IMG/VR virus record: IMGVR_UViG_3300042922_000265
Location: 103,374 to 167,373 of that record
DNA from: a virus
Length of the DNA: 64,000 nt
Direction: 5' to 3' (one strand)
The position numbers were made by a program, and so were the translations under genes. Under the pieces are notes generated by a model. That model was not told where the DNA came from. It made no database searches and worked only from the letters and a program-made list of their open reading frames with translations. Each line of letters begins with the position of its first letter. The stretch's first letter is position 1. This document shows, in pieces, positions 2,025 to 51,042 of the stretch.

Positions 2025-2211
2025 TCCCTGCTCACTCCCAGTTGAAGGTGTTCTACACCTTCTGGAAGCTGCTGCAGGTTTCTACAGGTTGGCTGGCCCT
2101 CCCCCGTTACAGGGGACCTCCCTCGCGCTCTCTCGACGGTCTATGCGCACTACTCCGTCGGTGCCCCGCTCAGTTCGCCACCGTCAGTTGCAACATCGGG
2201 TGGAGGCCATG

Positions 2212-2282
2212 CGGCCCATCCCGGAGTCGAACCGGGCTATCGCTGGGGTTAGAAGCCAGCTAGGTCGCCAGACCAATGAGCC
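2212..2282 (-). tRNA. tRNA-like gene with enlarged anticodon loop (Arg-UCU or CUA)
   Basis: The acceptor GGCTCAT pairs with ATGGGCC and the T-arm is CCCGG-TTCGACT-CCGGG. The D-arm is compact, GGTC-TGGC-GACC. The anticodon stem GCTGG/CCAGC closes a 9-nt loop CTTCTAACC. Read from the 5' side this is the canonical Arg-UCU loop plus two extra C. If a C-C mismatch is allowed, a 7-nt loop gives CUA, an amber reader. No CCA is encoded; the flank is GCA. Confidence 0.55.
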
Positions 2283-2967: not shown

Positions 2968-3005
2968 CCATACTGACCACTATAGCATCTCTACAGGGTT
3001 TAGAG

Positions 3006-3087
3006 TAGCCGAAGTGGGACTCGAACCCACACGTCCGAAGACACGGCATTTTGAGTACCGCGCGTCTACCAGTTTCGCCATTCGGCC
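3006..3087 (-). tRNA. tRNA-Leu (CAA)
   Basis: Class II tRNA: acceptor GGCCGAA/TTCGGCT, Leu-type D-loop CTGGTAGAC, anticodon stem CGGTA/TGCCG around CTCAAAA, a variable arm GTGTCTTCGGACGT and T-arm GTGGG-TTCGAGT-CCCAC. Discriminator A. CCA is not encoded, so the CCA-adding enzyme at 23197-24363 would be needed for maturation. Confidence 0.92.
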
Positions 3088-3130
3088 ATCAGCTCGTCAT
3101 CTCCGGCCTGCAGTCCTCGGATGACTCACG

Positions 3131-3204
3131 TGCCCCTGGGGAGACTCGAACTCCCAACCACACGGGTTTAAACCGTGCCGCTCTACCAATTGGCGTACGA
3201 GGGC
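3131..3204 (-). tRNA. tRNA with Leu anticodon UAA but class I shape
   Basis: Full cloverleaf: D-stem CGC/GCG, anticodon stem CACGG/CCGT G around TTTAAAC, T-arm GGGAG-TTCGAGT-CTCCC, discriminator A. The anticodon is UAA (Leu UUA), yet the variable arm is only about five bases, where bacterial leucine tRNAs have a long one. The acceptor has one C-A mismatch. No CCA is encoded. Confidence 0.8.
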
Positions 3205-3209
3205 CTACG

Positions 3210-3282
3210 TACTCCGAGCGGGACTCGAACCCGCACTGGGTGGCCTCTCAGACCACTGCCTCTGCCATTGGGCTACCGGAGC
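3210..3282 (-). tRNA. tRNA with Leu anticodon GAG but class I shape
   Basis: Acceptor GCTCCGG/TCGGAGT with two wobble pairs, D-stem GCC/GGC, anticodon stem GTGGT/GCCAC around CTGAGAG, T-arm GCGGG-TTCGAGT-CCCGC, discriminator A. Position 34-36 reads GAG (Leu CUC/CUU), but the variable arm is short. Spacers on both sides carry TACGTA. No CCA is encoded. Confidence 0.78.
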
Positions 3283-3287
3283 TTACG

Positions 3288-3373
3288 TACCTGGAGAGGG
3301 ACTCGAACCCTCACGACCGTCAAAGGCCACTGGATTCTGAGTCCAGCGCGTCTACCAATTCCACCACCCAGGC
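3288..3373 (-). tRNA. tRNA-Leu (CAG)
   Basis: Class II tRNA with Leu D-loop AATTGGTAGAC, anticodon stem CTGGA/TCCAG around CTCAGAA, a long variable arm with CCTTTGACGG, T-arm GAGGG-TTCGAGT-CCCTC and discriminator A. No CCA is encoded. Confidence 0.93.
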
Positions 3374-3401
3374 ATAGGTGCTGCTCTATTCAGTTGTCAC
3401 G

Positions 3402-3484
3402 CGGAAGGTAGAGGAATCGAACCCCCAGGAATCACCCCGCCCCGGTATTCGACGCCGGTTGCCGACCATTCAGCGGTACCCTCC
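3402..3484 (-). tRNA. tRNA-Ser (CGA)
   Basis: Acceptor GGAGGGT/ACCTTCC, anticodon loop GTCGAAT giving CGA, a long variable arm containing GGGGTGATTCC, T-loop TTCGATT and discriminator G as expected for serine. The closing anticodon-stem pair is a C-A mismatch. No CCA is encoded. Confidence 0.88.
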
Positions 3485-3496
3485 AAGGTTACTGCG

Positions 3497-3579
3497 CGGA
3501 AGGCGGGAGACTTGAACTCCACGGGGGTTAGTCCGTATCGGTTTAGCAAACCGACTGCATCACCTGATGCTCACCCTCC
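3497..3579 (-). tRNA. tRNA-Ser (GCU)
   Basis: Acceptor GGAGGGT/GCCTTCC, anticodon stem TCGGT/ACCGA around TTGCTAA (anticodon GCU), long variable arm, T-loop TTCAAGT, discriminator G. It is the first tRNA of this cluster in transcription order and shares its acceptor with the neighbouring Ser-CGA tRNA, suggesting duplication. No CCA is encoded. Confidence 0.92.
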
Positions 3580-6618: not shown

Positions 6619-6921
6619 TCAAACCGCAGGGTCGCTGAGCGCCCGGTCGCGCGCCTCGCACCGGTCGTACCGGTAGACCTTGCCGCCCTTGACGCCGTCA
6701 CGCGGATCAGCCTTGCTGAACTCGTAGGCCAGAATGGCCAGGCTGTCATTGAGCAGTCGCTTCAGCTGCGGGTCACGAGCCTCGCTGATGCGCTGATTGT
6801 CGCAGGCGCGGTGTACGAAGAACATGTTGGGCCAACGGCCCTCGGTCTCGATGTCGGCGGTGTAGCCGTCCTGCTCTCCACCGAACAGCTCGACGTGGAT
6901 GGTTTTGGTCTTGATGGCCAT
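6619..6921 (-). CDS. hypothetical protein, 100 aa
   Basis: The start at 6921 (MAIKTKTIHVELFGG) is preferred because CAGGAGGA lies 7 nt upstream; the longer frame to 6978 has no ribosome site and overlaps the gene before it. Beta-rich N-terminus, then a helical part (LKRLLNDSLAILAYEFSKAD). Function unknown. Confidence 0.75.
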   Translation of the reverse strand: MAIKTKTIHVELFGGEQDGYTADIETEGRWPNMFFVHRACDNQRISEARDPQLKRLLNDSLAILAYEFSKADPRDGVKGGKVYRYDRCEARDRALSDPAV

Positions 6922-6974
6922 GGAAGCATCCTCCTGTTCACCTATTCCAGGGGGTCCCAGGTTCCATCGCAGGG

Positions 6975-7334
6975 TCATTTGAAGTCGTCGGAATCGACGC
7001 CCTCACCGAAATATGGACCGCTCTTGTCGCGGTAACTCATCTCGAACTTCTCCAGCAGACTCTGGGCGAGCGCGTCGGTCACGCTGCCGGTGACCACGTA
7101 ATCGTGTTCAGTGAAAACCTGCTCGATGAACCCTCTCAGCTGGCGGTACCGGCGAGCCTCCTCGGCCTCTAGGGCCTCCAGGCGCGCCGCACGATCACGG
7201 AGGTGCTCCACGACACTGGCGACCGTGGCGATCTCATTCACTCCGCCCTCGGTCAGCTTGACCAAGGCGTTGGCCAGGCGGTCCAGGTCGGAGGCGCTCC
7301 AGTCCTCATAGGGGTCGAGTTGGTTGACCATCAT
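6975..7334 (-). CDS. hypothetical coiled-coil protein, 119 aa
   Basis: A helical protein with a Glu/Ala/Arg-rich coiled segment (HLRDRAARLEALEAEEARRY) in the middle. The ATG-ATG start overlaps the stop of the secreted-protein gene (TGATG), so the two are probably translationally coupled. Function unknown. Confidence 0.75.
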   Translation of the reverse strand: MMVNQLDPYEDWSASDLDRLANALVKLTEGGVNEIATVASVVEHLRDRAARLEALEAEEARRYRQLRGFIEQVFTEHDYVVTGSVTDALAQSLLEKFEMSYRDKSGPYFGEGVDSDDFK

Positions 7335-11644: not shown

Positions 11645-12736
11645 CTACAGCCTTGCGGGATCGCGATCGTACTGAATCATGGCCGCCTTCTTGGCCAGCT
11701 CCTCCTCGATCCATTTCTGCGACTCCTTGACCTTGACGTCGAAGTAGCCCTGTGGATCGTTGGGGTCCGCACGCGGCAGCACCCGGTAATTCAGATGGTG
11801 GATCTGGGCGTACTGAATCCACCATTCGTCACTGATCTCACGGCGGTCACCGCCATAGCGCAGCGGATCGGGCTCGAACGGAATCTCCGACGGCGTGATG
11901 ATGTACAGATCGCTCTTGAGCGCATCGGCCTGCTTGAGCAGGGCCATGGGTGGATAGTCCCGCAGCCGGGGGAGGCTCCAGGTGTCCAGGCTGTCGTAGT
12001 GATTGGCCCAGTACTGCCAGTAGCCGTGCGTGCTGTACAAGTCGGTGTCCTGGACGCGCAAGGGTGTCCTGAAGGGCATCCGCTGCAGCGCCGCCTGACC
12101 GCGCCAGATGTTGGTCATCGACTCGATCGTGATGCGATTTTCAACGTTCTCCAGGTACGGCCTGGCGAACTCCACGGTCTGGTCGCACCAGTTGTTGCGC
12201 TGCAGCTCACGGGTCAGCCGGGTCTTGCCGGTCGACTCCGCACCGAAGATGGTCACCGTGGTCTGCAGGAATTTGCGGAACTCCGGGAGGATCAGCCCGA
12301 ACTTCTTCAGCGGCTCCTCGCGGATGGCGGTGCCGCTGACCCGGTTCATCACTCGTTCGACGTCGAAGGGCATCCAGATGGCATCGGTCATCTCCGCACA
12401 CCACTTGCAATAGGGCTCACTGCCGACGATGTAGTCACCGGGCTGGATGCCCATGCCCAGCAGCATGCCCTGCCACAGCTCGCGGAACCCCTGGCCCTGG
12501 GCATCCTCGGGCAGCTGCTTGTGCAGGTGGAACAGCTTGACGTTCGAGGCCAGCTTGAAGTCATTCTTGATCGCCAGCTCCAGCGCGCCCTTGCGCTGCC
12601 AGACCATCGGCTCCGATGGCATCGTCCCCAGCATCACCGTGACACCGTCCTCGGCCAACAGAGAGGCGTAGCGGATCAGCTCCATGTGCCCCACCGTCGG
12701 CGGGATGCAGGTGAGCATCACGAACGCTCTGGCCAT
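11645..12736 (-). CDS. nadR: NadR-like NMN adenylyltransferase / ribosylnicotinamide kinase
   Basis: 363 residues with two domains. Residues 1-150 are a nucleotidyltransferase fold: a degenerate HxGH site as PPTVGH at 12-17 and the family loop SGTAIRE at 134-140. Residues 160-340 are a P-loop kinase with Walker A GAESTGKT at 165-172, as in NadR. Such enzymes make NAD from NMN and phosphorylate nicotinamide riboside to NMN. The DNA-binding domain of enteric NadR is absent. The PnuC transporter gene is immediately upstream (stop/start overlap), and NAMPT lies at 45790-47328. Confidence 0.92.
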   Translation of the reverse strand: MARAFVMLTCIPPTVGHMELIRYASLLAEDGVTVMLGTMPSEPMVWQRKGALELAIKNDFKLASNVKLFHLHKQLPEDAQGQGFRELWQGMLLGMGIQPGDYIVGSEPYCKWCAEMTDAIWMPFDVERVMNRVSGTAIREEPLKKFGLILPEFRKFLQTTVTIFGAESTGKTRLTRELQRNNWCDQTVEFARPYLENVENRITIESMTNIWRGQAALQRMPFRTPLRVQDTDLYSTHGYWQYWANHYDSLDTWSLPRLRDYPPMALLKQADALKSDLYIITPSEIPFEPDPLRYGGDRREISDEWWIQYAQIHHLNYRVLPRADPNDPQGYFDVKVKESQKWIEEELAKKAAMIQYDRDPARL

Positions 12737-13491
12737 CAGAAGTCTCCTCGGGCGGCCTGCGTGGCGGCGATCTCGTCGGGTGTTGCCTCACGGACTCCGA
12801 CCGCTTTCCACTCCCTGCTGCGATTCCACATCCAGAAGCCAACCACGGTGTTGACCAGGAATAGCACGTACTGGAAGCCAGCCAGCGGCAGACCCGAGCT
12901 GAAGTAGGTGTAGATGGCGGCCACGTTGACCACGGCCCATACCGCCCACGTCTCCAGCTTCTTGTTGTCCAGCAGCATCTGCGCCAGCACGGTGCCGATC
13001 AGAATCAGAGCGTCCGCCGGGGCGAACCGTCCTCCAAGACCCTCCACGATCTCCACAGCACCCCAGTAGGTCAGCGCCGTCAGGATGACGTACATCGGCA
13101 GCCAGCGCAGCTTCAGGCGGCTCACAGAACGAGCCTGGTCGTCCGAACGCCACCGGAACCAGCCGTACACCAGGTACGGGCACAGGTAGGCGTTCAGAAT
13201 GGCCGAGGCAGCCAGGTCACTCTGCCAGAACAGCACCGCGTAGGCCGCCGTGCTCACCGCGCCGATCGGGTAGTTGATCCGGCGCTGACGCACGCACAGC
13301 CAGGTGCAGGCATAGCTGGTGTAGACAGCGAACGCCTCCAGCGGGTTGATGCCATCAGGGAGCCAGCCTGCCCACAGAGCGATGGCGTAGCTACCACTGG
13401 TGAACAGACTGGCCAGCGCGAACGCTTCCACCAGATGACCGATCAGCTTCTCGCGTCGGATGACCTTGGTGTAGTACTCCGGGACTGTCAT
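12736..13491 (-). CDS. pnuC: PnuC-family nicotinamide riboside transporter
   Basis: 251 residues with about seven hydrophobic helices and the PnuC core: LCVRQRRINYPIGAVS followed by AAYAVLFWQSDL, and the C-terminal WAVWAVVNVAAIYTYFSSGL. PnuC facilitates nicotinamide riboside uptake; trapping needs a kinase, supplied by the overlapping NadR-like gene. The start at 13491 (MTVPEYYTK) overlaps the upstream stop (ATGA); a start 21 codons earlier would lie inside that gene. Confidence 0.92.
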   Translation of the reverse strand: MTVPEYYTKVIRREKLIGHLVEAFALASLFTSGSYAIALWAGWLPDGINPLEAFAVYTSYACTWLCVRQRRINYPIGAVSTAAYAVLFWQSDLAASAILNAYLCPYLVYGWFRWRSDDQARSVSRLKLRWLPMYVILTALTYWGAVEIVEGLGGRFAPADALILIGTVLAQMLLDNKKLETWAVWAVVNVAAIYTYFSSGLPLAGFQYVLFLVNTVVGFWMWNRSREWKAVGVREATPDEIAATQAARGDF

Positions 13492-13673
13492 TTCTTGTCT
13501 CGGTTGTAGGCGTCCCAGTTGCAGCTCAAACCACCCGAGCTGTTGCCGACGCACCAGACCTCACCGCCATACTCGTCCGCCGGGAGCCAGGCCCCGGTGT
13601 TGGTGATGCCCTCGATGCCGCAGCCGGTCAGGACGACAGCCAAGGCGGCCATCCCGATGATCATCTTCTTCAC
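13488..13673 (-). CDS. small lipoprotein, GGLSC motif (paralogue A)
   Basis: A GTG start overlapping the upstream stop gives MKKMIIGMAALAVVLTGCG, a lipoprotein signal with lipobox LTGC. The mature part is 43 residues and ends GGEVWCVGNSSGGLSCNWDAYN. The neighbour at 13670 ends with the related VDYGGLSCDW, so the pair arose by duplication. Likely surface-exposed in the host envelope. Confidence 0.78.
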   Translation of the reverse strand: MKKMIIGMAALAVVLTGCGIEGITNTGAWLPADEYGGEVWCVGNSSGGLSCNWDAYNRDKK

Positions 13674-44020: not shown

Positions 44021-44050
44021 ATTCTACAGGGTAGAGGCGTAGTGGGTCTA
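44021..44050 (-). promoter_or_regulatory. promoter, TAGACC class
   Basis: TAGACC, 18-bp spacer ending CCCTG, TAGAAT, then a long leader to the ATG at 43949. The -35 overlaps the stop of the RlaP-like gene. Confidence 0.6.
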
Positions 44051-44881
44051 GGGTTGCTCTCTATCTGCCCAGTACTGGGCGTAGAAGCCACTGAGCCAGT
44101 GGTTGACCTGGTCGTAGTCGGGCTCATCCTTCAACGGTGAGGTGTCCAGGTAGTGGTCCATGGAATTGGCGAACTCATCCACCATGATGAGCACTTCGTC
44201 CTTGGTGTATTTACCTTCGCGAATATCGCGCAGCACACCGACGTAGTGAGGGGCCATCGGGTAGTTGATGCGACCCGATTGGATGAGGTGCCTACCCTGC
44301 AGGGCGATGCGTACGGCGTGATAGCCCGCCTTGGTGTCCCACCCGAATTTCTCCACCAGCTCCGGGCGTGGTGACTGGTCAGCCTCCAGGTAGCGCACCA
44401 GCTGCTTCTGCAGGTATCCCCAGTAGCGCTGGGCGGCGATCTTGGAGACGAACATCGGGGCGCGTCGCGCTACCTCAATCCACCAATGGGTGACCACCCA
44501 CCGCGTGGTGTGTGGTGAGAACAGCAGGGCGGTCATGTTGGGATCGCCCTTGAGCACCAGGCCGATGAATTTGTTCAGGCCGAAGACGGTCATGTCGATG
44601 CCGTCGGCTGGTGTCTTCTCGCCAATGGGTGCCGAGCTGTAGATGTACTGATCGAACCAGCCCGCGTCATAGCCCAGCATGGCCTCAGGCGGCTCGATGC
44701 ACACGCCTTGCAGATCGGTGTCGCTGTGCTCGGTGTCGGTGCCGTACATGACACTGCCCACCTGGGTGAGCATGATGCAGTTGTTGGCTGCCACGTCGAA
44801 GTGACGGGCGGTGCGATGCTTGCCGGTGATCTCAGGGCCGGGGCGCGTGATGCCGTGGCTGTTCAGTGTGGCGACGACCAT
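44048..44881 (-). CDS. RlaP/YcgL-type Pol-beta nucleotidyltransferase
   Basis: 277 residues. GSVMYGTDTEHSDTDLQGV at 42-60 is the nucleotidyltransferase GS-(x)n-DxD signature as found in RNA-ligase-associated RlaP proteins. The remainder is helical with WGYLQKQLVRYLEA and a typical GRHLIQSGRINYP block. RlaP enzymes are thought to act on RNA ends near RNA ligases; no ligase is seen in the window. Start overlaps the upstream stop (TGATG). Confidence 0.82.
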   Translation of the reverse strand: MVVATLNSHGITRPGPEITGKHRTARHFDVAANNCIMLTQVGSVMYGTDTEHSDTDLQGVCIEPPEAMLGYDAGWFDQYIYSSAPIGEKTPADGIDMTVFGLNKFIGLVLKGDPNMTALLFSPHTTRWVVTHWWIEVARRAPMFVSKIAAQRYWGYLQKQLVRYLEADQSPRPELVEKFGWDTKAGYHAVRIALQGRHLIQSGRINYPMAPHYVGVLRDIREGKYTKDEVLIMVDEFANSMDHYLDTSPLKDEPDYDQVNHWLSGFYAQYWADREQP

Positions 44882-45096
44882 CAGAACCACCGAGTGTTCA
44901 GTGGCTTCTTGACCTTGTGTTTCTTCACGTCTTCAATGCTACCACGGTAGAGAAAATTACTAGCATTCATTCCGGCGCGTTCCTCGGTCTCATTGAGCGC
45001 GTCCAGGACGTTGCAGACCAGCACTTGCTCGTTGACCGAGAGCTGCCCGATGGGCGTGTACAGACCTCCCCTGGACTCCAGAGTGAAGCTACTCAT
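44881..45096 (-). CDS. hypothetical protein, 71 aa
   Basis: MSSFTLESRGGLYTPIGQLS, helix NEQVLVCNVLDALNETEE, basic C-terminus. ATGA overlap upstream. Function unknown. Confidence 0.68.
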   Translation of the reverse strand: MSSFTLESRGGLYTPIGQLSVNEQVLVCNVLDALNETEERAGMNASNFLYRGSIEDVKKHKVKKPLNTRWF

Positions 45097-45536: not shown

Positions 45537-45790
45537 CAGCGCCCCACAATAAACGCGATGAACGCGCCCACAGCGATCACGAGCAGGAACAGCGCCACGA
45601 CAGCGCAGCCGATGAAGGTGGGCACCAGAATCTGCCACCAGCTCCAGTACAGGACCGGGTTCCAATCGGTCTGCGGGAAGAAGTGCAGCACAACGAACAC
45701 AGCCTGGATGAGGCCCAGGACGCCAATGCCCCCGCTGCTGCTCGAACTGCTGCTGGAGGAACCCATGCGAGGGGCGGGTCGCATAGCCAT
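45536..45790 (-). CDS. two-TM membrane protein with poly-Ser N-terminus
   Basis: MAMRPAPRMG followed by nine Ser, then hydrophobic helices IGVLGLIQAVFVVLHFF and VPTFIGCAVVALFLLVIAVG. It lies between the NAMPT gene and the barrel protein, coupled by TGATG. Function unknown. Confidence 0.72.
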   Translation of the reverse strand: MAMRPAPRMGSSSSSSSSSGGIGVLGLIQAVFVVLHFFPQTDWNPVLYWSWWQILVPTFIGCAVVALFLLVIAVGAFIAFIVGR

Positions 45791-47328
45791 CAGCGATGCT
45801 CCTCGCGCTGCTTGGCCAGGTTCTCACGTACCGAGTCGAAGCTCTGGTGCACGATGAACCGGCCATCGCGCCAGATCGGCTTAAGCAGGCTCTGGGCCTC
45901 GGTCTGGTAGTCGGCCTTCTCCACCAGGTAGAGATCCTCGCCGTCACCACCCAGCACGGCCAGGCGACCGGTGGCGCTCTTCTTGGTGCCGTCGTCGGTG
46001 ACGGGGTCCTTGAACAGGTTGACGCCCTTTCCATTGACCTCGGCCCAGGTGGCCTTCATGGCCGAGCCGAAGGTGTCGCGCGTGACGTACTGGTAGGTGT
46101 AGCTACCCACACCGAACACCACGTTGCTGGCCGCAAAGCCCTGGCGCTTGAGGTTGCTCAGAATAGCCTCGGCACGGTCCAAGGTGATGCTGTCACCGTA
46201 GATGGCACCGATGTGCGAGTTCAACTCGCGGAAGCCCTTGGTGTTGGTGGTACCACCGAAGGTCTCCCACAGCAGTGGGATCACACCACGCTGCTCGGCC
46301 ACCGTACGTCCTGCCGGGTTGCCACACAGGATCTTCTCGGGGTCACCCGAGTCCGGGCGGATGACCAGCTTGCCGTCACGCGCCTCGATCTGTGCCTTGA
46401 ACACGGGCAGGATGAACTCCAGCACGTTCCACAGGTCGAAGGTGTCGCTGACCACGCTCACGATGCCGCCGGGGTACAGATCCAGGAGGCGATGAAACAG
46501 AGCTGCCTCGGCCTCACCCCGGTTGTAGCCGTCGCGGAATCCAATGCCGTCCTGCTGGCTCATGATGCCGGTGCTCATCACCGAGTGCTCGGTGGCTGCC
46601 ACGCTCATCAGGTCGTAGTCACCGCCGTAGTACTTCTCGATGTAGTCGGCAGTGAGCAGGCTGTCACTGCCCTTGAAGCTGAGCAGATGGCCTGCGCCCG
46701 AGCTGGCCGCGCTCTCCCAGCTGTTCATGCCCCGAAGGCTGAAGTCGTGCAGCTGGAAGTCGACGTGACTCAGGTTGTCCCCGGTCTCATCACCGAACTT
46801 CTCCAGCTTGACGCGGAAGGCGTGCGCCGTGGTGGCGCTGGTGCTGGGACCCCAGATGGCCGCGCTGATGGCGCTCTCCAGGTAGTTGGTCACCCAGAAG
46901 AAGTCGTCCAAGGTGTTCTCCACCGTGAAGCTGGGCACCCGGATCGGCACCAGAGTGCCCTCGGGTACCGCGCGGAACTCCACGGGCAGGAAGCCCAGGT
47001 CGTGCAGCTGGCCGATGTGTTCGGCACCGATGGCCTCGGCGGCGTCGGGACCCAGGATCTTGAGCACCCGAGCGAAGTACTTCTCGGTGACCTCATCACG
47101 ACTGGCGGCAAAGAAGGGCTCGTAGGCGTCGGTGATCTTGTGCAGGAATGCCTGCAGGCCGAAGTGCACCACGTGATCGAACCCGGCGATCCGACTCTTT
47201 CGGTTCGTGTAGTTGGTCAGCACGCGTGTGACGTCACCGGCCAGCTGGTACTGGCGACGGTGGTCCAGCTTGTAAGCGTCGGTGAGGAACAACGGCGCGA
47301 TGCACGCATTGTCGTAGGTGTCCAGCAT
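45790..47328 (-). CDS. nadV: nicotinamide phosphoribosyltransferase (NAMPT)
   Basis: 512 residues, full family length. Key segments: TDAYKLDHRRQY at 16-27, SGAGHLLSFKGSDS at 210-223, ATEHSV at 245-250 with the catalytic His, VVSDTFD at 292-298 and IRPDSGDP at 323-330 for PRPP/ribose binding. It converts nicotinamide plus PRPP to NMN. PRPP synthetase is two genes upstream and NMN adenylyltransferase is at 11645, so the route nicotinamide to NAD is complete within the phage. Confidence 0.96.
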   Translation of the reverse strand: MLDTYDNACIAPLFLTDAYKLDHRRQYQLAGDVTRVLTNYTNRKSRIAGFDHVVHFGLQAFLHKITDAYEPFFAASRDEVTEKYFARVLKILGPDAAEAIGAEHIGQLHDLGFLPVEFRAVPEGTLVPIRVPSFTVENTLDDFFWVTNYLESAISAAIWGPSTSATTAHAFRVKLEKFGDETGDNLSHVDFQLHDFSLRGMNSWESAASSGAGHLLSFKGSDSLLTADYIEKYYGGDYDLMSVAATEHSVMSTGIMSQQDGIGFRDGYNRGEAEAALFHRLLDLYPGGIVSVVSDTFDLWNVLEFILPVFKAQIEARDGKLVIRPDSGDPEKILCGNPAGRTVAEQRGVIPLLWETFGGTTNTKGFRELNSHIGAIYGDSITLDRAEAILSNLKRQGFAASNVVFGVGSYTYQYVTRDTFGSAMKATWAEVNGKGVNLFKDPVTDDGTKKSATGRLAVLGGDGEDLYLVEKADYQTEAQSLLKPIWRDGRFIVHQSFDSVRENLAKQREEHR

Positions 47329-47351
47329 GGTGTGCCTTTCGTTGTGGGTGG

Positions 47352-48590
47352 TTAGAGGTACTGCCCGACGGCCTCGGGCTCAGCGATGCCCGTGGTGACG
47401 CGATCGGATTCATTGGCCTTGAGGTCTTCCATCAGCTGGGCCAGGCTGACCGGGCCGTGGTAGTTCTTGCTGATGCCGCGCTTGAGCATCCACTGGCGCG
47501 CGAGGTTGGAATCGAACTCCTTGAACTCGACCTGAGCCAGGCAGCGCCCCGGACGGGTGACCGCCTTGTCCAGACGGTCGATCTCCTCGTTGGTGGTGAT
47601 CAGGAAGATGGTGTTGCTGCCTGCGCCCAGGATGCCGTCGGAGAAGTTGAGCAGACGGCTCATGGCCGCGCTGGCGTCACCACGCTGGCGTGCGCGCAGG
47701 AACTCACCAGCATCCTCGGCCACCACCAGACGCCATGGTGTCCTGCGCGACAAACGCCTCTCATCCATGATCTCGGCGTAGTCTTCATCCTCCGGCGAGC
47801 CGTCATCGGGCTCTTCCTCTCCCTCCGACAGTTCGTCATCCTCGATCTCCACGGTGCCGCTGGACGACCCCACATCCATGAGGTACTTGGGCAGCGAGAA
47901 GAACTTCTCGGGATCGGAGATGTAGTGGAAGCTGCACCAGTCCTTCCACTCGCGTGCGAGCGAACGCAGGGCCGTGGTCTTACCGGTGCCAGGAGGGCCA
48001 TGCCACAGCACGATCTTGCCCTGGCCGCTGGGACGCTCGTAGCTCATCATGGTGGTGAGCGCTTCACGGATGCCCTGGGTGTAGTTGTCGCTGATCTCGT
48101 CCCAGCTTTGGGCCTCGATCTTCTTGAGATTGGACTCCGGCCCTTGCGGCCCTGCAGCCCACACCCAGGTGTCCACCACGTGATCAGCGACCACCTTGTT
48201 GGGGATCTTCTTGGCGATCTTCCTGACCATCTCATGGACCTCGGCCTCATTGGGGCCGCACAACGTGATCGAGATAGACGTCTTGGTGGACCGGGTGACG
48301 AGCGCCATGACGCGGTCGTTGTCATCGGTGAACAGCCTGATCTCGTTGAGACCCTTGGTCCCGAACTCATGGCTACGCAGGAGGGTCCATGTGCGATCGT
48401 CGGGCAGATAGCTGTGCACATCCACGAGCTTGGTGTTGGACTGCTTACTGATCAGCCGGGTAAAGGGCTTGGTGCCATTGACGATGCACGCCTGAAACTC
48501 GGCATAGACCGGGACTGAACAACGTCCGTACTCGTTGTCGGGGTTGAGGTTCAGATTCACCATGTTGCTGATGGCATCAGAGGCAGTCAC
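47352..48590 (-). CDS. AAA+ ATPase between PRPP synthetase and NAMPT
   Basis: 412 residues. N-terminal 180 residues are a separate domain of unknown fold. Walker A GPPGTGKT at 198-205, Walker B-like LVVAEDAGE at 288-296, sensor 1 FLITTNEEID and arginine-finger RPGR at 346-349 place it with BCS1/Rubisco-activase-type AAA+ proteins. An acidic insert (EIEDDELSEGEEEPDDGS) precedes Walker B. The GTG start overlaps the PRPP synthetase stop. Its job may be remodelling a host NAD-related or envelope protein; unknown. Confidence 0.85.
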   Translation of the reverse strand: MTASDAISNMVNLNLNPDNEYGRCSVPVYAEFQACIVNGTKPFTRLISKQSNTKLVDVHSYLPDDRTWTLLRSHEFGTKGLNEIRLFTDDNDRVMALVTRSTKTSISITLCGPNEAEVHEMVRKIAKKIPNKVVADHVVDTWVWAAGPQGPESNLKKIEAQSWDEISDNYTQGIREALTTMMSYERPSGQGKIVLWHGPPGTGKTTALRSLAREWKDWCSFHYISDPEKFFSLPKYLMDVGSSSGTVEIEDDELSEGEEEPDDGSPEDEDYAEIMDERRLSRRTPWRLVVAEDAGEFLRARQRGDASAAMSRLLNFSDGILGAGSNTIFLITTNEEIDRLDKAVTRPGRCLAQVEFKEFDSNLARQWMLKRGISKNYHGPVSLAQLMEDLKANESDRVTTGIAEPEAVGQYL

Positions 48591-49483
48591 TTGACTCCAA
48601 ACGTTGTCTCGTAGAGAGGGATGAAGCAGGGGACGATGGCAGAAGCCACGCCTACTCGGTTGTGGCCGGGATGGCTGTCTGTGGTTCCGATCCAGCTGTA
48701 GGACTTCCTGAGCTGATCCGCGTGCCCGCTGAAGATGCCGTGGGTGACCCACAACCCGAGCTGCTCACGTGGTAGTCCGATATTATCAGCAAGTAGAGCG
48801 AAAGTTCCACCCCCATCGCAGATGTCATCTACCACCAGGTAGCGCAGCTTGGGGTCCAGGGGTGGCACCTTGAGCCCCAGAATGGCACCCGTGGCCTGGT
48901 CACGCGCCTTGTCACAGACATGCAGCGGCACGTCCAACGCCTGAGCCACAGCGCCTGCGCGGTGCACTGCACCCTTGTCCGGGCTGATGACGCCGTCGAA
49001 GGGTGCAGTGTTGGCCAGGCCCTGCAGGGCACGGAACACCAGTGGCACCACGTCTACAGAACGGATGCCAGAGATCTGGCGGGTGATGACGCTACTGTGC
49101 GGATCAATTCCCACCACATGGTGGGCACTCAGGCTGTTGATCATGCGGGCATACACCGCACTGCCCAAGGGATAGCCCTTGTCGGCTCGTGCTGCAGGCA
49201 GATAAGGAGCCCAGAGCACGAACCGGAAACCCTGGCGGTCCTGATGCCAGAAGTTCGCCCGATGCGCCAGATCGGCCCACAGAGCCACCTGGGCGTACTC
49301 ATCCATGTCAGCACCGCGCCAGTCGGCGATGAAGGTCACCTGCCCGCGATTGGAGGGGATCTCCGGCAGGTTACGCAGGTGCCACTCACCACCGGGGAAC
49401 CGGAATGCCTCTGGCTTACCGGTCAACACCCCCAGGTTGAGAATGCCATCGACTTGGGTGTGAACACGAAAGTGAATGGTCAT
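48587..49483 (-). CDS. prs: ribose-phosphate pyrophosphokinase (PRPP synthetase)
   Basis: 298 residues of the Prs type: VVGIDPHSS at 123-131, VISPDKGAVHRA at 165-176, and the PRPP-binding loop VVDDICDGGGTF at 217-228. It makes PRPP from ribose-5-phosphate and ATP, the co-substrate for NAMPT. Start overlaps the stop of the potassium channel gene (ATGA), so channel, Prs and AAA+ are translationally linked. Confidence 0.93.
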   Translation of the reverse strand: MTIHFRVHTQVDGILNLGVLTGKPEAFRFPGGEWHLRNLPEIPSNRGQVTFIADWRGADMDEYAQVALWADLAHRANFWHQDRQGFRFVLWAPYLPAARADKGYPLGSAVYARMINSLSAHHVVGIDPHSSVITRQISGIRSVDVVPLVFRALQGLANTAPFDGVISPDKGAVHRAGAVAQALDVPLHVCDKARDQATGAILGLKVPPLDPKLRYLVVDDICDGGGTFALLADNIGLPREQLGLWVTHGIFSGHADQLRKSYSWIGTTDSHPGHNRVGVASAIVPCFIPLYETTFGVK

Positions 49484-49836
49484 GCGCCGAGCTTCTCCTT
49501 GATCGCAGTGACGTCGGACTTGAGCTTCTCCTGCTCGCCGTCAGTCCACGCATCGTTGTTCACGATCATGTAGGCGGCGATGCGGGCGGTGAGGATAGGC
49601 GTGATCACCCAGAGAGCGACGGTCAGGTAAATCACCGTGACGATGCGACCGGCCCTGGTCTTGGGTGTGATGTCGCCGTACCCCGTCGAGCTGCCACTGA
49701 CGATGGACCAGTAGAACGACTCCAAAGGGCCGGTGCCCTCGAACACCGAGTAGGCCACAGCAGCAATGACCGTGGTGGCGATTGCCAGACCAGCCACGCG
49801 AGGAATGGTGCTGGTCAGAGAATGAATTTTGCTCAC
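49480..49836 (-). CDS. 2TM potassium channel pore protein
   Basis: 118 residues: TM1 about 14-32, pore helix SFYWSIVSGSS, selectivity filter TGYGD at 51-55 followed by ITPKTRAGRI, TM2 about 64-88, then a charged C-terminal helix. This is the minimal KcsA/Kcv-type architecture, which would form tetramers in the host membrane and conduct K+. The GTG start is after GAAAGGGCTCACTTC. It directly precedes PRPP synthetase. A role in changing membrane potential or host turgor is inference. Confidence 0.92.
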   Translation of the reverse strand: MSKIHSLTSTIPRVAGLAIATTVIAAVAYSVFEGTGPLESFYWSIVSGSSTGYGDITPKTRAGRIVTVIYLTVALWVITPILTARIAAYMIVNNDAWTDGEQEKLKSDVTAIKEKLGA

Positions 49837-50499: not shown

Positions 50500-51042
50500 T
50501 TACTGAGCGGCATTGATCAACGCAGCAGCCTTGGCCGCAGCGTCATGGTCCCACCCCGGAACGATCTCGATCTCCGGGATGCCCATCTCTTCCCACAACG
50601 TGATGATTGCCGGGTTGTCATCGACAGCCCCCACCACGTCGAAGCTCTGGCTGATCTCGGCGAAGATTTCACGCTTGACCTCGACGTCCTTGCGGTGGTC
50701 GCCGTCGGTGCGCATGTAGATGTGCGGTTCCCAGTCGAAGAACTCACGGCACGTGCGCTCCAAGAATCGGGTGGTCACACCCTCCCACTTGCGCATGCGC
50801 GCGGTCACGATCAAGACCCGGTAGCCCTGGTTGTTGGCCCTCACACAGAAGTCGATGGCCTGCTGGTTGGCCGGGACGAACTCACTGGCCGCATGGAAGG
50901 CGTCGAAGTTCTTGATAACCTTCACCCCACCGCTGGCCTTCGGCTTGGTCACCGATCCATCGACGTGGAATCGCACCGAGCTGACGTTGGCCAACGTGCC
51001 ATCCATATCAGCCAATACAGCTTTCGGCTTGAACTTTGTCAT
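50500..51042 (-). CDS. HAD-superfamily phosphatase (polynucleotide 3'-phosphatase-like)
   Basis: 180 residues. DMDGT at 12-16 in VLADMDGTLANV is HAD motif I; VLIVTARMRKW is motif II; KREIF and VVGAVDDNPA supply motifs III and IV. The layout resembles the phosphatase half of T4-type polynucleotide kinase, which removes 3' phosphates from RNA or DNA; the kinase half is absent. Together with the RlaP-type enzyme it hints at RNA-end processing. Predicted leaderless. Confidence 0.82.
   Translation of the reverse strand: MTKFKPKAVLADMDGTLANVSSVRFHVDGSVTKPKASGGVKVIKNFDAFHAASEFVPANQQAIDFCVRANNQGYRVLIVTARMRKWEGVTTRFLERTCREFFDWEPHIYMRTDGDHRKDVEVKREIFAEISQSFDVVGAVDDNPAIITLWEEMGIPEIEIVPGWDHDAAAKAAALINAAQ

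Follow-up and report, generated by a model that had tools for sequence, protein, structure and literature searches.

The described systems closest to the locus analyzed here are the NARP1 operons of Bacillus phage SPbetaL1 and Mycobacterium phage DyoEdafos, which encode an ADP-ribose pyrophosphokinase (Adps) and a nicotinamide ADP-ribose transferase (Namat). The purified Adps and Namat of DyoEdafos convert ADP-ribose to nicotinamide adenine dinucleotide (NAD) (PMC13232231). Namat is separated from Nampt by the signature GSX-phi-X-phi-X-phi-TRD, and has a selectivity clamp in which aromatic residues stack on the adenine, aided by a loop arginine (PMC12774641). A further NARP1-associated protein, RyDEP, turns cyclic ADP-ribose immune signals into ADP-ribose, which feeds Adps (PMC13232231). 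On the host side, a C-terminal GQYL, in which the glutamine is replaceable, allows Mpa and PafE/Bpa to bind and open the 20S proteasome of mycobacteria (PMC12288473, PMC6017811, PMC8142254). Here we describe a locus in a 64,000-nucleotide stretch of DNA (the window), which is the right-hand 64 kb of the 167-kb virus record IMGVR_UViG_3300042922_000265. It is probably a NARP1 operon whose adps and namat genes are separated by an additional one, encoding a DUF5925-AAA ring ATPase that is predicted to plug a C-terminal GQYL into the host 20S proteasome and may serve survival of NAD-depleting defence.

The three genes named by a sequence-only reading of this DNA are present on the same strand (Table 1), and the names Prs-like, AAA+, and NAMPT-like are reasonable as homology labels. 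On the minus strand, the order of transcription is a channel-like gene, the Prs-like gene, the AAA+ gene, the NAMPT-like gene, and a small putative membrane protein gene. The coupled run begins one gene before adps, at the channel-like gene, which is joined to adps by a 4-nt start-stop overlap (ATGA), and adps is joined to the AAA+ gene by another one (GTGA). The AAA+ open reading frame (ORF) is open from 48752; its true start is almost certainly the GTG at 48590, because this codon gives the 4-nt overlap with the Prs stop and the PHROG match begins only at residue 58 of the long ORF. The AAA+ gene had been described as locked by overlap on both sides, which is true on the Prs-like side; the NAMPT-like gene starts 23 nt past the AAA+ stop and is preceded by its own purine-rich ribosome-binding sequence. 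The start of the small putative membrane protein gene shares one base, at 45790, with the NAMPT-like stop. Two broader statements of the sequence-only reading are borne out, namely that this is a phage NAD-rebuilding operon of the kind known to counter NAD-depleting defences, and that the AAA+ gene belongs to no NAD pathway. What it missed is the informative feature of the AAA+ protein, its C-terminal GQYL.

The nearest phage DNA is that of Mycobacterium phages Phabba, Myrna, and ScoobyDoobyDoo, three members of Myrnavirus for which M. smegmatis mc2 155 was the isolation host. From these relatives we infer that the virus is of the mycobacteriophage type, with a mycobacterium or close kin as host. 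The same trio, which had been proposed as something to seek in other phages, is conserved in identical order in all three, and in each the Prs-like gene abuts or overlaps the AAA+ gene. Identities to the window proteins are 57-63% for the Prs-like protein, 55-58% over the matched stretch for the AAA+ protein, and 76-77% for the NAMPT-like protein. Each of the four Myrnavirus-type genomes seen carries the AAA+ gene between adps and namat. The channel-like gene, present in Myrna and Phabba and absent in ScoobyDoobyDoo, is an optional member of the operon.

The enzyme pair is very likely Adps and Namat, with activities assigned from those of their relatives. The clamp signature, the clamp arginine, the closest relatives, and the adps-namat synteny strongly support a predicted NARP1 pathway, from ADP-ribose to ADP-ribose pyrophosphate (ADPR-PP) and NAD, in place of one from phosphoribosyl pyrophosphate (PRPP) to nicotinamide mononucleotide (NMN) and NAD. 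The window NAMPT-like protein contains GSYTYQYVTRD, which corresponds to the published Namat consensus, including the aromatics at positions 3 and 7, and its Arg46, invariant in Myrnavirus, aligns with the clamp-loop stacking residue Arg40 of SPbetaL1 Namat. It is 60% identical to DyoEdafos Namat and 43% to SPbetaL1 Namat. Its best PDB matches are 9w5x and 9w5w (E 1e-128, 433 bits), compared to about 204 bits for mammalian Nampt; the entry name says just Nampt, and we take both to be SPbetaL1 Namat from residue numbering (Asp13, Tyr15, Arg40) that matches PMC12774641. The window Prs-like protein shares 45% identity with DyoEdafos Adps, and its matches to true PRPP synthetases are weak (best PDB E 1.5e-9; 66 bits vs a 113-bit cut-off).

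The same pairing is found throughout the viral contigs scanned with the window Prs-like protein, where a Namat-like gene lies directly downstream in 80 of 80 viral loci, and the Namat signature is present in 79 of the 85 NARP1 loci examined. At the position of the signature, the two stand-alone phage Nampts have GGGLLQ..RDT; the Nampt of Vibrio phage Va3, which has no Prs-like neighbour and is 29% identical to window Namat, has GGGLLQ. The NARP2 pathway is marked by a PRPP-specific Nampt without clamp aromatics, whereas the clamp is present in the window protein. The enzyme pair itself is ordinary, as NARP1 phages are already known.

In the AAA+ protein, Pfam places a DUF5925 domain ahead of an AAA domain, and both matches exceed the cut-off. 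It aligns over its full length with cellular DUF5925-AAA proteins of Actinomycetes, and is, as judged from this alignment, a full-length relative of that uncharacterised actinobacterial family. A DUF5925 match occurs in 42 of 198 sampled Actinomycetes genomes, one per genome. The ATPase core is intact and conserved (GPPGTGKT, an acidic ED-type Walker B, TTN, and RPGR), and all core positions of Walker A but two prolines are invariant across phage, actinobacterial, and distant viral homologs. The phage proteins carry a long acidic insertion before the Walker B strand, which is missing in most cellular homologs. Mpa and the known defence ATPases were considered as identities for this protein and rejected, since NCBIfam and PADLOC gave generic P-loop matches only; the Mpa model pup_AAA (TIGR03689; coiled coil and OB domains) gave no match to it up to E 0.01. 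The AAA+ protein of Rhodococcus phage NiceHouse is a different, BCS1-like protein without GxYL.

The four phage AAA+ orthologs all end in AVGQYL, and every one of the 41 cellular homologs, at identities as low as 33-39%, ends in G-x-Y-L. To judge from the ends counted, chance is not a reasonable source of this motif, because all 44 ORFs ending in GxYL, among 4,105 of at least 100 amino acids with distinct ends in the loci examined, belong to the DUF5925-AAA family (0 of about 4,060 others); within the window, the AAA+ protein is the only one of 386 ORFs with such an end. The stretch just before GxYL varies in sequence and length and is predicted to be disordered, with a predicted local distance difference test score (pLDDT) below 50 from residue 398. 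Relatives encoded in other phage contigs, many of them equally close to the window protein (33-38% identity), have GF-type tails and never GxYL. A maximum-likelihood tree unites the Myrnavirus proteins with the actinobacterial ones in a single group (94/95 support), to which alone GxYL maps. There is good reason to predict that the AAA+ protein docks on the host 20S proteasome via GQYL, and the cellular DUF5925-AAA proteins of Actinomycetes may be an unrecognised class of proteasome-docking ATPases. Cellular DUF5925-AAA genes with the invariant G-x-Y-L end are found in our loci L091 (5575-6726), L093-L121, and L172-L182.

The place of the AAA+ gene is also informative. In most NARP1 loci adps and namat touch, and the remainder hold an extra gene in the gap, which is a recurrent slot for accessory genes. 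RyDEP occupies it in DyoEdafos and in loci L022, L038, and L045, and a Phage_VG64-family protein in L065. The slot of the metagenomic phage locus L068 (7038-7613) holds a SLOG-family (YAcAr) protein. SLOG proteins are thought to bind nucleotide-derived ligands, and the L068 protein may be a further ADPR-related counter-defence gene. Unassigned slot proteins, without a Pfam match in those tested, are found in L089 (6627-7211), L078 (6783-7166), and L037, L039, L042, and L044 (around 6786-7308). Searches that began with the phage AAA+ proteins and were extended to the wider family placed the AAA+ gene beside NARP1 only in Myrnavirus. RyDEP itself was rejected for this phage, as neither a RyR-domain match in the 167-kb record, a weak negative given that control genomes also gave none, nor a tblastn match in the window was obtained.

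In the mechanism that we propose, Adps would charge the ADP-ribose left by NAD-cleaving defences to ADPR-PP, and Namat would join ADPR-PP and nicotinamide into NAD, in two steps in all. The AAA+ protein, translated from the NARP1 mRNA, would form a ring whose flexible C-terminal GQYL tails plug the alpha-ring pockets of the host 20S, like those of Mpa and Bpa/PafE; its N-terminal domain would pick the substrate, and the ATPase would thread it into the proteasome. The translational coupling of the AAA+ gene to adps suggests that its product serves the same purpose as NARP1, which is survival of NAD-depleting defence. We propose only weakly a substrate, a direction of effect, and a defence link for the AAA+ protein: the target might be, for example, an activated NAD-cleaving effector or its sensor, which is a guess from operon membership. 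That the phage encodes its own proteasome regulatory ATPase and destroys the NAD-cleaving defence via the host 20S, while NARP1 rebuilds NAD, is a tentative proposal which we consider possible rather than probable.

Several observations weigh against this interpretation. The operon link between the AAA+ gene and NARP1 is carried by four related genomes alone. In 12 regions of 14 kb around cellular DUF5925 genes, no homolog of the phage NAD-gene set was found, the neighbours being protein kinase, acetyltransferase, and small hypothetical genes, so that the tie of the AAA+ protein to NAD would come from the operon alone. Close relatives are included among the 41 cellular sequences that share the GxYL end. 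A 20S beta subunit is found in 41 of the 42 DUF5925 genomes, compared to 161 of 198 overall (Fisher p 0.0013), but this co-occurrence is confounded by ancestry, and four fifths of the sampled genomes have a proteasome; we therefore regard it as consistent with docking rather than as strong support. The sole exception, G059, is a fragmented draft that has Mpa but gave neither an alpha nor a beta subunit. A usable structure prediction was obtained from 23 sequences (pLDDT 78; 52 in an earlier one from 4 sequences), and its best solved matches are BCS1, a heptameric translocase of folded protein, and B. subtilis YjoB, rather than Mpa, which stands lower in the list together with the 26S proteasome ATPases. 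Because the global template modelling scores (TM-scores) are low, at 0.3-0.5, the fold search tells little beyond the AAA+ nature of the protein. BCS1 assembles into rings of seven, and the alpha ring of the proteasome is likewise seven-fold; by analogy, a heptameric BCS1-type ring would be a natural fit on it.

Other explanations differ in whether they concern the chemistry of the operon or the AAA+ protein. The sequence-only reading had proposed that Prs makes PRPP, NAMPT makes NMN, and NadR makes NAD, a NARP2-like pathway with added PRPP supply in which the AAA+ protein would be an unrelated passenger. Some PRPP activity is retained by Namat enzymes in vitro (PMC12774641), and the window phage does have PnuC and NadR, the latter with intact adenylyltransferase motifs (PPTVGH and SGTAIR) and a C-terminal kinase domain. 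This NadR-like gene is real and provides the phage NMN adenylyltransferase associated with NARP2, though 33 kb from the trio. Nevertheless, it is not a needed third step: among the Mycobacterium phages of the collection searched, none matched NadR, not even Myrna, Phabba, and ScoobyDoobyDoo, and since these three keep the trio, the trio does not appear to depend on it. With the clamp signature, the closest relatives, and the synteny all indicating ADPR-PP, and with Adps far from true PRPP synthetases, the PRPP route is highly improbable, and we rejected PRPP/NMN as the main chemistry on the clamp signature and synteny. The two routes nonetheless seem to be stacked in some phages, because the metagenomic NARP1 loci L065 and L073 carry nadR and pnuC within a few kb of adps and namat, a gene set that the window phage has too, in its case at separate places. 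A different possibility, which overlaps with the docking explanations, is that a mobile AAA+ gene came to lie between adps and namat by chance, as a passenger with no link to NAD repair. Unrelated small genes fill the slot in other NARP1 phages and the AAA+ gene occupies it only in Myrnavirus, whereas the start-stop overlap and the place are kept in four genomes whose AAA+ proteins have diverged to 55-60% identity, and the other slot residents with an identified domain include RyDEP, proven to feed NARP1, and a SLOG-family protein; we regard chance placement as possible but doubtful.

For the AAA+ protein itself, the chief alternative with the same docking is a cap or decoy that occupies the GQYL pockets of the 20S, keeping Mpa and Bpa off the core particle and shielding phage proteins from Mpa- or Bpa-driven degradation. 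The same GQYL/GxYL tail evidence applies to such a role, competition between interactors is known, with Cpa competing with Mpa for the proteasome in vitro (PMC6017811), and the long acidic insertion of the phage proteins is absent from most cellular homologs. A pure plug, however, needs no ATPase activity, whereas Walker A, the Walker B-type ED, TTN, and RPGR are all conserved, and we consider a cap rather improbable. It is also unlikely that GxYL is a family-specific structural C-terminus unrelated to the proteasome, with the AAA+ protein instead chaperoning or remodelling Adps, Namat, or a membrane partner in the manner of BCS1. The best solved fold matches to BCS1 and YjoB, the presence of membrane proteins in the operon, and the relatives from other phages that lack the motif and are presumably still functional would agree with such a role. 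On the other hand, the motif ends a variable tail predicted to be disordered, and structure would not fix three positions across 33% identity; moreover, GxYL is the docking motif already known, and only actinobacterial and Myrnavirus members have it.

Table 1. Features of the predicted NARP1 operon and of the NadR/PnuC genes, given as positions in the window.
Feature	Position	Strand	Details
Small potassium-channel-like membrane protein gene	49480-49836	-	118 aa, TGYGD selectivity filter; Ion_trans_2 5.5e-12
adps (Prs-like ADP-ribose pyrophosphokinase, first NARP1 enzyme; predicted)	48587-49483	-	phrog_619 E 3.3e-65
AAA+ ATPase gene, DUF5925-type N-terminal domain	47352-48590	-	412 aa, GTG start; Pfam AAA 4e-12, DUF5925 1.4e-7
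Walker A GPPGTGKT of AAA+ protein	47976-47999	-	
C-terminal GQYL of AAA+ protein (predicted 20S proteasome dock)	47355-47366	-	
namat (NAMPT-like nicotinamide ADP-ribose transferase, second NARP1 enzyme; predicted)	45790-47328	-	phrog_448 8e-179
Namat selectivity-clamp helix signature GSYTYQYVTRD	46075-46107	-	
NadR-like NMN adenylyltransferase and ribosylnicotinamide kinase	11645-12736	-	phrog_3462 3e-38; TIGR01526 1.5e-19, below its cut-off
PnuC-like nicotinamide mononucleotide/riboside transporter, adjoins NadR	12736-13554	-	PF04973 3.7e-38; phrog_1880 1.5e-31

Outside the operon, genes for an RlaP-type nucleotidyltransferase (44048-44890) and a polynucleotide-kinase phosphatase (50500-51042) flank it on the minus strand. 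Other actinophages (L005, L007, and L008) likewise have a gene for a polynucleotide kinase, an RNA ligase, or a nucleotidyltransferase in the vicinity of NARP1. The window also carries a tRNA with a CTA anticodon, named tRNA-Pyl by ARAGORN (2211-2282, minus strand), which is a possible amber suppressor; its neighbours are a tRNA-Ser gene and four tRNA-Leu genes, each of the latter with its own anticodon (3005-3579).

If the docking is true, the conflict between phages and mycobacteria would gain a new side, that of a phage protein made for docking on the bacterial proteasome, and the cellular proteins, DUF5925-AAA with an invariant GxYL in about one fifth of the sampled Actinomycetes, would be a new class of proteasome-associated ATPase. 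In the literature searched, we found no phage linked with the GQYL motif, no paper on the DUF5925-AAA family, and no description of a proteasome-tailed ATPase between NARP1 enzymes. As the AAA+ gene already forms a unit with a pathway known for counter-defence, M. smegmatis offers a direct test of its function. The adps-namat gap is also a place to look for more NAD- or ADPR-related counter-defence proteins.

Compared to the NARP1 operons of SPbetaL1 and DyoEdafos, the window has the same two enzymes, in the same order and with the same coupling and Namat clamp signature, and differs by the 412-aa AAA+ gene between the enzymes and the potassium-channel-like gene coupled upstream. The mycobacteriophage DyoEdafos likewise carries an extra gene, RyDEP, in this slot of its NARP1 operon (PMC13232231), but RyDEP encodes a small RyR-domain glycosidase of cyclic ADP-ribose signals, whereas an AAA+ ATPase is found here. 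Mpa/ARC is also an AAA+ ATPase with a C-terminal GQYL, from which the window protein differs by its DUF5925-type N-terminal domain and the lack of a pup_AAA (TIGR03689) match. Bpa/PafE shares the C-terminal GQYL as well, yet it is a dodecameric, ATP-independent activator to which no homology was seen. The BCS1-type AAA+ ATPases, which are the best PDB matches, have the overall AAA+ fold in common with the window protein, which has a GQYL tail, no reported BCS1 Pfam domain, and, to judge from the predicted model, no evident N-terminal membrane helix of the BCS1 kind. Closest of all are the DUF5925-AAA proteins of Actinomycetes, which share full-length homology, the GxYL end, and the ATPase motifs with the phage protein, the latter being 30-37% identical to them, carrying the acidic insertion, and located in NARP1.

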